Shown here piece by piece: positions 19,311 to 23,249 of a DNA stretch of 64,000 bases. Origin of the DNA: Phycisphaerales bacterium (GTDB taxonomy: Bacteria > Planctomycetota > Phycisphaerae > Phycisphaerales > UBA1924). The stretch covers positions 186,001 through 250,000 of the forward strand of contig JADLFE010000009.1 in assembly GCA_020845755.1 (NCBI GenBank), read 5' to 3'. The number at the start of each line of letters is the position of its first letter. The stretch's first letter is position 1. The translations under genes were made by a program, and so were the position numbers. Under the pieces are notes generated by a model, which saw only the letters and a program-made list of their open reading frames with translations, did not search any database and was not told the origin of the DNA.

Positions 19311-19336
19311 GCTGAGTTCCTCCGGGGCGCGAGAAA

Positions 19337-19420
19337 TGCGGCTGAGAGGAGTCGAACCTCCACGGGTGTTACCCCACTAGAACCTGAATCTAGCGCGTCT
19401 GCCAGTTCCGCCACAGCCGC
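19337..19420 (-). tRNA. tRNA-Leu (anticodon CAG)
   Basis: Read on the minus strand the 84 bases start GCGGCTGTGGCGGAACTGGC and end CAGCCGCA, giving a paired 7-bp acceptor stem GCGGCTG/CAGCCGC with discriminator A. The anticodon arm CTAGA-TTCAGGT-TCTAG carries CAG. The T arm contains GTTCGACTC. A long variable arm, as expected for leucine, makes up the extra length. The 3' CCA is not encoded. It lies between the small membrane protein and the rearranged ruvC/Rhs region. Confidence 0.95.
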
Positions 19421-19498
19421 AGGGTGTGGAACGGAAGGTTAGCCACCTGATCGACCGCCGGCAATGCTCTCCCCTCTCCCGCGCCCCAATCACCACCC

Positions 19499-19720
19499 CG
19501 CGGCGTCGTCCTGCTCGCCATCCGACAGGCCGGCGTGCAACTCATGGAGTTCAAGCCAAACCTCGTCAAGCGAGCCATGACGGCCCACGGCCTGGCGAGC
19601 AAGGGCCAGATGCAGCGGGCCGTCCAGTCCATGTTCGACTTGCCCGAGCCCCCCAGCCCGCCCGACGTCGCCGACGCGATCGCCATCGCGCTGTGCGCGG
19701 CACGAAGGCATGGGGTGTGA
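19499..19720 (+). pseudogene. ruvC: ruvC 3' remnant
   Basis: The frame encodes 73 residues beginning RGVVLLAIRQAGVQLMEF and containing KPNLVKRAMTAHGLASKGQM, PPSPPDVADAIAIALC and a terminal RHGV. This is the last ~45% of RuvC, the Holliday junction resolvase, including the C-terminal catalytic Asp region (DVADA). The first ~100 residues, with the first catalytic Asp and Glu pair, are missing: upstream lies only ~80 bases before the tRNA. It has no start codon or ribosome site of its own. It is best read as a deletion scar, unless a start elsewhere is joined by an assembly error. Confidence 0.75.
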
Positions 19721-19742: not shown

Positions 19743-20075
19743 TCACTCCGTCACGCCGCCGGTGTTGTTGACCTCGTGCGGCCAGCGGTGCGTGCCCACG
19801 CCGTACGACGTGGAGCACATCCTCCGGCGCAGCACCGCGTTCTTGTCGATCACCGCGACGGTGCTGAACTGCGCATCGGACAACTGCCAGAAGAGCTCGC
19901 CCGAGTCCCGGCTGTCGCCGTCGAGGTTCTTGTCCAGCAGCCGCACCATCGCGTCATCAATATACCGCAGACCCCACACCTGCTGCGAGCGCGAATTCGT
20001 CCCGTCCGGCGAGCCGCCGTTCGTGTGGTCGTCCACGTCCTCCTGGAGGAGCTGCCAGCCCGCCGAGTAGTACAT
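19743..20075 (-). pseudogene. Rhs-repeat fragment A (truncated)
   Basis: A 110-codon frame beginning YYSAGWQLLQEDVDD and containing VWGLRYIDDAMVRL, a standard Rhs/YD-repeat segment. It stops just after HRWPHEVNNTGG, before the conserved core end. From QVWGLRYIDD to EVNN it is about 80% identical to Rhs fragment B (20538-21869), and the DNA at 19757-19995 parallels 21648-21885. It lacks both the N-terminal shell-forming repeats and a C-terminal toxin, so it cannot be functional alone. Confidence 0.7.
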
Positions 20076-20150
20076 CGTTCGGTGCCCTTTGACAAACCGG
20101 GCGCTGCATTCCTGTCGGACCTGCCGGGGTATATGGATGCGCGCTCGCTG

Positions 20151-20513
20151 TCACATCGAATCTGCGATAACTTCACGCGCCCAGTGCCAACTCAGCCAGC
20201 CCACCCCGGGCACTCCAATGATGTGAAACCAGATCATCTTCGGCAATCTTGTCCAAGAGCCCAGCGCGTACGCGGAATAAGACATACAGCTATGCCATAC
20301 AACCACGGACACCGTTCCGACAAAGACCGCGGCGATACATACAACAAGTACATATGAACCGATGGCATCGCGCCACAACCTTGGCGAGCACATGTTAGCG
20401 TTCACACGCGCACGCATTTCATACAGAATATGACACACCAATGTCGGCACATAAATGCTAATAATTAGCACATCATTGATGTTCGGACCAAGCTTGATCA
20501 GTGCCTGCGACAT
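20151..20513 (-). CDS. small multi-pass membrane protein, candidate immunity protein
   Basis: A 120-residue protein with three or four membrane segments (around residues 14-32, 52-76 and 92-112). GGAGG lies 13 bases before the ATG, somewhat far. It starts 24 bases after the stop of the Rhs C-terminal gene, the position an immunity gene takes in Rhs/CDI toxin loci, and the local sequence is clearly lower in GC than the surroundings, as is usual for such cassettes. No family was recognised. A membrane immunity protein would suggest a membrane-acting toxin; this is inference. Confidence 0.5.
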   Translation of the reverse strand: MSQALIKLGPNINDVLIISIYVPTLVCHILYEMRARVNANMCSPRLWRDAIGSYVLVVCIAAVFVGTVSVVVWHSCMSYSAYALGSWTRLPKMIWFHIIGVPGVGWLSWHWAREVIADSM

Positions 20514-20537
20514 CGTTACTTATTTGCCTCCGGTCGA

Positions 20538-21869
20538 CTAGTTAGCTGGCTTTTCATCAGAATTGCACGGTGGCTTGTCACATTTTTCCGCGCACTGGGT
20601 TTTTAGGTCTTGAATGGCTGCGTGGACAGCCTTCAATATTTGATACGCCGTATTGGCCTTCCCGAGAGCTTTCGTGCCGGCCGAAAGCAATTTCAAGTGC
20701 GCAGCACGCTTTGCAGCGGATACAGCCTTGGACTTCGCTCTTGCCTTCGCCATCGCTTCGACTAGTTTCGTCTGGTCAGTCGGGGTGCTTGCTCCGTTCT
20801 TCAGGTATCCTTCGATCGCACTCGAGAAGCTAGCCTGCACTCGTCCATACGACTTGCACGTCTCGGTCGACTGTTCAGCCATGATATCGATTGCCCTCGC
20901 ACCAACTTCATACCAGTCGTACTTAATCTCGCCTGTGTTCGGATCGATCTCAATGACATCAATCGTTGTCTGCGCAAGTTGACCAAGAAAGTCCGCAATC
21001 TTGATGTAGTCCTTGACAACGTCATACCCTGCGGCAGCCAGAGCATGGGCGAGTTTGTCGGGATTCTCTGCTATGCACTCGGCAAGACAATCCATATAAT
21101 CAAGATAGCATTTTGCTCGATCCTTCAATTCCTTCCCGTTCAACCCGATCGTCCGTCCGAGCGCACTGCCCCCAACCGCGTCCATCTCCTTGATCAATTG
21201 ATCAAGCTCGTCCTCACCTCCAGGCGCGATCATCAATCCATAGGTATCCAAGTACATGACTGGCATCCCACTCACGTATTCGTACAGCGCCGCACCACTG
21301 CCAAAGAATCCAAGTGGGTCTCTCTCCAGCCACCTGCCGAAGGTCGGGCTGTACCACCTGAACCTGACCGTGTACAGCCCCTGGTCCGCGTTGTAGACGT
21401 AGCCGTCATACCCAAACACGTTGTCCGGCCCGTTCGGATCAGAGATCAGCCCACTCGCCAGCGCCGACTTGGCCCCGCCCATCGAGGTGAAGAGCGAGGT
21501 GTCGCCCGAGTCGATCACGCCGTCGCGGTTGAGGTCCGCGGCCACGTTGTAGTTGGTGTTGTCGATCGCTGTCCCCGCGCCGGAGTTGGCCTGGGCCAAA
21601 CCGTCGATGACTCCATAGTCGCTGGTTCCGCCGGAGGTGGTGACACCGCCCGAATTGTTGACCTCGTGCGGCCAGCGGTGAGTCGCGGCGCCGTACGACG
21701 TGTAGCTCACCCGCTCCTGCAGCACGGCGTTCTGGTCGATCACGGCCACGCTGCTGAACTGTGCATCGCTGAGCTGCCAGAAGAGTTCTCCGGCATCTCG
21801 GCTGTCCCCGTCGAGGTTCTTGTCGTGCAGCCTGACCATCGCGTCATCAATATACCGCAGACCCCACAC
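20538..21869 (-). CDS. Rhs fragment B: core end plus variable C-terminal domain
   Basis: The 443-codon frame begins within an Rhs repeat (VWGLRYIDDAMVRL), passes a dockerin-like DLNRDGVIDSGD, then RFRWYSPTFGRWLERDPLGF and YEYVSGMPVMYLDTYGL, the conserved Rhs core end. Residues 213-443 are a unique, helix-prone Lys/Ala/Cys-rich domain of unknown family, the position of the toxic tip in Rhs proteins. The apparent GTG start has no usable ribosome site, and the frame continues upstream without a start until a stop beside recA. The thousand or so residues of the Rhs shell are missing, so this is a displaced (orphan) Rhs C-terminus. Confidence 0.65.
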   Translation of the reverse strand: MWGLRYIDDAMVRLHDKNLDGDSRDAGELFWQLSDAQFSSVAVIDQNAVLQERVSYTSYGAATHRWPHEVNNSGGVTTSGGTSDYGVIDGLAQANSGAGTAIDNTNYNVAADLNRDGVIDSGDTSLFTSMGGAKSALASGLISDPNGPDNVFGYDGYVYNADQGLYTVRFRWYSPTFGRWLERDPLGFFGSGAALYEYVSGMPVMYLDTYGLMIAPGGEDELDQLIKEMDAVGGSALGRTIGLNGKELKDRAKCYLDYMDCLAECIAENPDKLAHALAAAGYDVVKDYIKIADFLGQLAQTTIDVIEIDPNTGEIKYDWYEVGARAIDIMAEQSTETCKSYGRVQASFSSAIEGYLKNGASTPTDQTKLVEAMAKARAKSKAVSAAKRAAHLKLLSAGTKALGKANTAYQILKAVHAAIQDLKTQCAEKCDKPPCNSDEKPAN

Positions 21870-21902
21870 CTCCTGCGAGCGCGAATTCAGCCCCCTTTCA
21901 AC

Positions 21903-21931
21903 GAAAAAGCCCGCCGGAATTCCCGGCGGGC
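21903..21931 (-). terminator. recA terminator
   Basis: On the minus strand a perfect 9-bp stem GCCCGCCGG/CCGGCGGGC encloses a 5-base loop and is followed by TTTTT. It lies about 40 bases past the recA stop. The Rhs-like sequence begins within ten bases of its end. Confidence 0.88.
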
Positions 21932-21971
21932 CCTGTGATTCACGGAGTCACTCACGTTCGGCGGCCGAGTC

Positions 21972-23087
21972 TTATTCCTCGTCGCCCTCGTCCTCATCGC
22001 TCGCGGCCACAACCGCCGGCGCGACGTGCGCCATCTTGATCGCCAGGATCTTCTGGCGGATTTCCTTGGCCAGTTCAGCGTTCTCGCGGAGGAACTGCTT
22101 GGACGCCTCGCGACCCTGGCCCACGCGCACCTCGCCGTAGCTGTACCACGCCCCGCTCTTCTGCACCACCCCAGCCTCCACACCCAGATCGATCAGGTCG
22201 CCCTCGGCCGAGATGCCCTCGTTGTACATGATGTCGAACTCCGCCTCGCGGAACGGCGGGGCGATCTTGTTCTTCACCACGCGACCGCGTGTGCGGCTGC
22301 CCACCGTGACCTCGCCCTCCTTGATCGCGCCCGTGCGCCGAACATCGATGCGCACCGACGAATAGAACTTGAGGGCCCGCCCGCCCGTGGTCGTCTCCGG
22401 CGAGCCGTACATCACGCCGATCTTTTCGCGGATCTGGTTGATGAAGATGACGGTGCAGTTAGAGCGGGCGATGACGCCCGTGAGCTTGCGCATCGCCTGC
22501 GACATCAGGCGGGCCTGCAGGCCGACCACCGCGTCGCCCATCTCGCCCTCGATTTCGGCCTTGGGAATCAGGGCCGCGACGGAGTCGACGACGATGATGT
22601 CGACCGCGTTGGAGCGGACGAGCAGTTCGCAGATCTCCAGGGCCTGCTCGCCCGTGTCGGGCTGCGACACCAGAAGATCATCGATGTTCACGCCGATCTT
22701 GCGGGCCCAGGAGGGGTCGAGCGCGTGCTCGGCGTCGATAAACGCCGCCACGCCGCCCTCGCGCTGCGCGTGGGCCGCCACCGTCAGGGCCAGCGTGGTC
22801 TTGCCGGAGGATTCCGGCCCGAAGATCTCGACGATTCGCCCGCGCGGGATTCCCTTGCCGCCCAGGGCAAGATCGAGCGAGAGAGCGCCGGTTGAGATGC
22901 CGGGGATGCTGAGGTACGCGGCCTCGTCCATCCGCATGATCGAGCCCTTGCCAAAGGTCTTCTCGATCTGGGAGACGGCCCTGCCCAGGGCCTGCGACTT
23001 TTCCTTGTCCTCAAGTTTCAGTTCGACTTTGTTGGCGATCTTGGAGACGGCCGGAACCGAAGCCTGGGCGGTCGATGACGCTGCCAT
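21972..23087 (-). CDS. recA: RecA recombinase
   Basis: A 371-residue RecA. The ATG at 23087 is chosen because it begins a plausible N-terminus; the frame upstream is not conserved. Walker A is GPESSGKTT at residues 90-98, Walker [13 protein letters not shown], and the L2 region contains [21 protein letters not shown]. The C-terminus is acidic (SDEDEGDEE), as in other RecA proteins. The N-terminus is about 25 residues longer than in E. coli. RecA forms the ssDNA filament for recombination and SOS signalling. No recX or lexA follows; the gene has its own promoter and terminator. Confidence 0.97.
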
Positions 23088-23249
23088 GAAACACCTGCCT
23101 TTTCTGCCGCGGGTGGCCTCGTCGTCCTGAAGTTCCGCGTGGCGGAGCCGGACTCTCTGAGGGCCCAACGGGGGCCGAGCGCAGGGCACGGGAAATCACT
23201 CGATTCCGCCGCGGCCGGGGGCGGCGCTGGACGCGAGCCCGGCACGAAC

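Follow-up and report, generated by a model that had tools for sequence, protein, structure and literature searches.

The segment directly behind recA in the genome of a Phycisphaerales bacterium represents, with a probability of roughly 0.8, a displaced orphan rhs-CT/rhsI cassette with a putative and probably silent toxin, a retained gene for its putative immunity protein and, at about even odds, an inner-membrane target. The window, that is, the whole stretch of DNA analyzed, spans 64,000 nt of contig JADLFE010000009.1, and coordinates without a contig or locus label refer to it. An earlier note had proposed an orphan rhs-CT/immunity cassette at this site. This proposal is borne out by long rhs genes that carry matching cores at other genomic sites, by seven differing tails, by a related pair in another genome (G487) and by the lack of a match to known families. 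The type of system is already well known (PMC3150448, PMC3482391). New are the recA-linked array and, judged from profile searches, a putative toxin family represented in two genomes and a putative immunity family represented in three, neither of which matches an existing profile.

Gene arrangement beside recA

A terminator-like hairpin of recA (21972–23189; TIGR02012, E 1e-162), assigned from the sequence at 21903–21932 on the minus strand, lies directly before the cassette. An open reading frame (fragment B) then extends on the minus strand from 21889 to 20538. It starts with the C-terminal end of an Rhs core (21315–21889, minus strand; TIGR03696), an orphan without a shell that ends in GRWLERDP, and continues into a polymorphic C-terminal region (20538–21314, minus strand) consisting of a short pre-toxin segment, LGFFGSGAALYEYVSGMPVMYLDTYGLM, and a putative toxin of 230 amino acids (20541–21230). 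The putative immunity gene follows on the same strand (20151–20513) and encodes a protein of 120 amino acids with two to three predicted transmembrane helices. As previously described, its start lies 24 bases past the stop codon of fragment B; it is preceded by its own GGAGG motif. Next comes fragment A (about 19749–20082, minus strand), the start of the Rhs core of a next cassette, truncated before the core end. The locus is bordered by a 3′ fragment of ruvC on the plus strand (19496–19720, ~74 amino acids; Pfam RuvC, E 5e-15), whose 5′ half is absent, and by a tRNA-Leu gene (19336–19421), the sole match in an RNA-family search. The coordinates given in the earlier note for both fragments and the membrane ORF were reproduced.

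The cassette locus lacks an Rhs shell, a signal for export and an evident promoter, and upstream of the core there is nothing beyond an in-frame GTG that could serve as a start signal. Given these missing elements and the position of the frame immediately after the recA terminator, we regard the putative toxin as probably silent. In our reading, the cassette comprises the last ~190 core residues, the putative C-terminal toxin and its immunity gene; behind it, a next cassette begins but is cut short.

Homologous Rhs cores in the same genome

Fragment B matches the Rhs_assc_core model TIGR03696 with an E value of 2.9e-14 and 53 bits (cut-off 32.5 bits), and the match covers the expected core end, RFRWYSPTFGRWLERDP. 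The subsequent ~230 amino acids match no family, in agreement with the earlier description of a core end joined to a unique tail. At the DNA level, the 574-bp core (21316–21889) is 81–87% identical to six other sites on contigs C25, C53 and C62 of the same genome, comprising long rhs genes as well as orphan cassettes. The similarity stops exactly at the core end, at the RDP codons. With E values of 4e-75 for the match inside the window and of about 1e-150 to 1e-203 for those to the other contigs, the resemblance of these sequences is not attributable to chance.

The absence of an Rhs shell, noted before, holds for the locus itself; contigs C25, C53 and C62 of the genome do carry long rhs genes whose cores match, the likely parents of the cassette. 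A search for such genes had been proposed as a check and yielded products of 1506–1602 amino acids, all with their 5′ ends lost at contig ends. The genes on C53 (1602 amino acids) and C62 (1564 amino acids) are each cut in this way, and C62 carries a further cassette. On C25, an rhs gene of 1506 amino acids is followed by a small ORF, a core with C-terminal region, a small ORF, another core with C-terminal region, an ORF and a core start. Among the seven units of this one genome, the cores are 79–91% identical, and the tails are unrelated past ~30–57 pre-toxin residues. At the sequence level, constant cores with differing tails constitute the pattern of polymorphic toxins.

Fragment A had been interpreted as a core that has lost its toxin. 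The two fragments are indeed related, with 249 bp in common at 83.9% identity, and fragment A shows 81–91% identity to the cores on C25, C53 and C62. It shares, however, the 5′ boundary of the C25 cassettes (MYYSAGWQ/MHNSARWQ) and represents an upstream stretch of the core that breaks off short of the core end. We therefore assign fragment A to the beginning of a following, truncated cassette and reject the interpretation as a core that was deprived of its toxin.

Several of the sibling tails in this genome (L009, L010, L011) look like further toxins by their sequences: nuclease-like motifs containing HH were seen in the main C25 tail and in the C62 orphan, and the C53 tail matches DUF6765 (E 7.7e-9). 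Most of these tails are without a Pfam family match. Contig C10 carries a second rhs gene, which is diverged (L042, 107–5072, plus strand); its C-terminal region contains a metallopeptidase-like HELTHARQ motif, and an ORF of 205 amino acids with hydrophobic stretches follows. Isolated core pieces of 50–90 bp also occur outside rhs genes (L012, 5305–5381; L013, 5264–5349; L010, 2285–2334). They center on NSRSQEVWGLRYIDDAMVRL or MYYSAGWQ, the same stretch that forms the junction behind recA, possibly marking a preferred breakpoint.

A conserved pair of putative toxin and membrane protein

Neither the tail nor the membrane protein had been recognized before, and neither matched a known toxin or immunity family in Pfam, NCBIfam or PADLOC. 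The tail had no match in PDB or plasmids either, and searching with the tail alone yielded no relative in 392 genomes of the phylum, genome_contigs, viral_contigs and plasmids. Matches to Agrobacterium VirB1 at an E value of 0.05 were taken as chance. Only by searching with the membrane protein did we find the sole relative of the tail, encoded in G487, which belongs to another genus of the family (29% identity over 214 amino acids, E 1e-38). Six cysteines are in register between the two tails. Profile searches detected no further toxins in the family, in 397 genomes of the class or in genome_contigs, and only these two toxin homologues are known.

The 120-amino-acid protein has two to three transmembrane helices by hydropathy and three long helices in an AF2 model (pLDDT 62); by both predictions it is almost wholly embedded in the membrane, with little soluble domain. 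Homologues are encoded at L031:8680–9042 in G418 (59% identity) and at L040:1638–2006 in G487 (21–22%, E 4e-9), and all three proteins are predicted integral membrane proteins. An immunity profile run over 311 genomes of the order gave no further homologue. A weak match in G095 was rejected as it contains stops and lies inside dnaE.

In G487 (contig JADZER010000046.1, Phycisphaerales bacterium SJ83), the membrane gene overlaps the stop codon of the Rhs ORF that bears the related tail. The two genes are hence adjacent in the window and also in G487, there on a different Rhs shell. That both are conserved side by side is the strongest computational indication that they would form a cognate toxin/immunity module. 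It also speaks against a small gene of unrelated function that came to lie between two Rhs fragments by chance. Such an origin could be suspected from the missing match to any known immunity family, but the gene takes the same position behind a homologous tail in another genus, and, of the genomes searched within the family, G418 and G487 alone gave convincing homologues; we consider it very improbable.

The recA junction in related genomes

A four-copy alignment showed that the junction between the recA hairpin and the rhs sequence is common to the window, G416 and G418. In G418, which belongs to the same genus as the window, the junction is followed by unrelated sequence, the last codons of the toxin, the immunity gene, a next core start and part of ruvC. 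Apart from these last codons (SNKKPTNQ, compared to NSDEKPAN), the toxin is absent, and the immunity gene is intact. The ruvC piece (L031:9489–9682) is 93% identical, lies on the same side of the locus and adjoins frr. In G416 (L030, 1225–2764, minus strand), the hairpin and rhs-remnant junction occurs twice behind recA, each time followed by small ORFs. These encode 169 (strongly hydrophobic, membrane), 154 and 110 amino acids and could be further orphan immunity genes; a transposase gene with winged-helix domains comes after them. For G417, also part of the same-genus comparison, the contig ends at the recA junction. At eight loci from other genera, no core, C-terminal region or immunity match was found in the ~1.5 kb beside recA, and in one of them the distance from tRNA-Leu to recA is ~0.5 kb, compared to 2.55 kb in the window. 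Judged from these alignments, the recA-linked array decays differently in each species of the genus.

The immunity genes of the window and G418 differ by a dN of 0.31 and a dS of 2.36, the latter near saturation. The resulting dN/dS ratio of 0.13 indicates that the immunity protein has been under purifying selection. For recA, dS is 0.22, about one tenth of the value for the immunity genes, so that the two alleles far exceed their flanks in age; they were exchanged or acquired separately and are not simple vertical orthologues.

These comparisons bear on the question of whether toxin and membrane protein still have a function, or whether the locus is debris that repeats have driven together beside recA. 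A relic of this kind would explain a cassette truncated at both ends, a core with only an in-frame GTG as start signal and the further decay in G416 and G418, and some of the selection on the immunity gene may predate its displacement. Yet the toxin frame is unbroken throughout the tail, for which a conserved homologue exists, and two species retain an intact immunity frame with a low dN/dS ratio and a conserved GGAGG motif. We therefore regard a dead relic as unlikely. In the preferred reading of a displaced cassette with retained immunity, the membrane protein plausibly also works alone, because its gene carries a separate ribosome-binding site and persists in the sister species that lost the toxin. 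It would then plausibly guard the cell against neighbors that carry the same toxin.

Possible target of the toxin

All three homologues of the immunity protein are predicted to be integral to the membrane, which makes a membrane-acting toxin the most likely. We see about even odds that its target lies at or in a rival cell's inner membrane, which might be attacked, for example, by a depolarizing pore, as formed by Tse5-CT. The idea of a pore is weakened by the lack of a hydrophobic segment of transmembrane grade: the maximum 19-residue mean hydropathy is 0.8 in the tail and 1.2 in the G487 homologue, both below the transmembrane range. The toxin is predicted to be entirely helical and has six conserved cysteines; an AF2 model of the tail was unusable (pLDDT 44).

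The same cassette could instead encode a toxin for a periplasmic or envelope (or cytoplasmic) target, with an immunity protein that is located in the membrane and blocks no pore. The conserved cysteines would fit disulfides outside the cytoplasm, and a tail lacking a transmembrane-grade helix would fit as well. The immunity protein, however, lies almost entirely in the membrane with little soluble domain, and the tail matched no enzymatic profile in Pfam or NCBIfam. We rate this alternative as a real but lesser possibility and favor the inner membrane as target.

Comparison with known Rhs systems

Orphan rhs-CT/rhsI and cdiA-CT/cdiI modules (Poole et al. 2011, PMC3150448; PMC3967940) resemble the arrangement described here in having a core fragment before a variable toxin, a small immunity ORF directly behind it, no translation start of their own, a full-length gene with a homologous core in the same genome and transposase genes nearby. 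Unlike those modules, the present cassette belongs to a planctomycete, lies behind recA on a contig separate from those of the long rhs genes and encodes new toxin and immunity sequences. In Salmonella, loading of an orphan toxin was selected via a 522-bp, 95% identical stretch (Koskiniemi et al. 2014, PMC3967940), whereas the core identity here is 81–87%. By analogy, we infer that the toxin would be deployed only after the 574-bp core has recombined with a full-length rhs gene, placing the toxin onto that shell.

Tse5-CT of Pseudomonas aeruginosa is an Rhs toxin that forms a depolarizing pore and is paired with the immunity protein Tsi5 (PMC9637101). Both systems combine an Rhs C-terminal toxin without enzymatic motif with a small integral membrane immunity protein, predicted in our case. 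The tail described here differs in having six conserved cysteines, no segments of transmembrane grade and no match in a PDB sequence search, where no relevant match to Tse5-CT appeared.

In polymorphic toxin systems, C-terminal toxin domains are swapped on a constant RHS part, and planctomycetes are among the hosts (Zhang et al. 2012, PMC3482391). The sequences analyzed here show the same pattern of exchange, and related shells start signal-peptide-like, one of them ending in Ntox16; neither Pfam nor NCBIfam contains a model for the present toxin/immunity family. An orphan Rhs immunity protein of Serratia was shown to protect on its own (PMC10539506). G418 likewise retains an immunity gene without toxin, and its product may protect in the same way.

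By our literature search, planctomycete Rhs systems seem little studied, and the putative 230-amino-acid toxin and 120-amino-acid membrane immunity families gain a first pair of annotation anchors. That an orphan cassette serves as a reservoir, with the immunity gene kept as defense, becomes directly testable, as cassette, likely parent genes, the G487 pair and a toxin-less sister can be compared. As a tentative and rather doubtful extension, these elements might define a new class of helical, cysteine-rich, Sec-exported and membrane-acting Rhs toxins in Phycisphaerales, with their own membrane immunity family, organized in a recA-linked array from which immunity genes are kept and exchanged toxin-free.

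Possible routes of delivery

A full-length Rhs relative in G487 has, by eye, a signal-peptide-like start, and it ends in an Ntox16 domain (E 5.7e-11). No PAAR match was found in the related Rhs shells, and the N-termini of the Rhs proteins of the own genome fall off the contigs. From their sequences, the related shells look Sec-exported. The genome that contains the window also encodes the T6SS sheath protein VipB/TssC within a type VI cluster (L059, G000:C33:535000–554999), which adjoins a filamentous-haemagglutinin-like ORF of 3827 amino acids.
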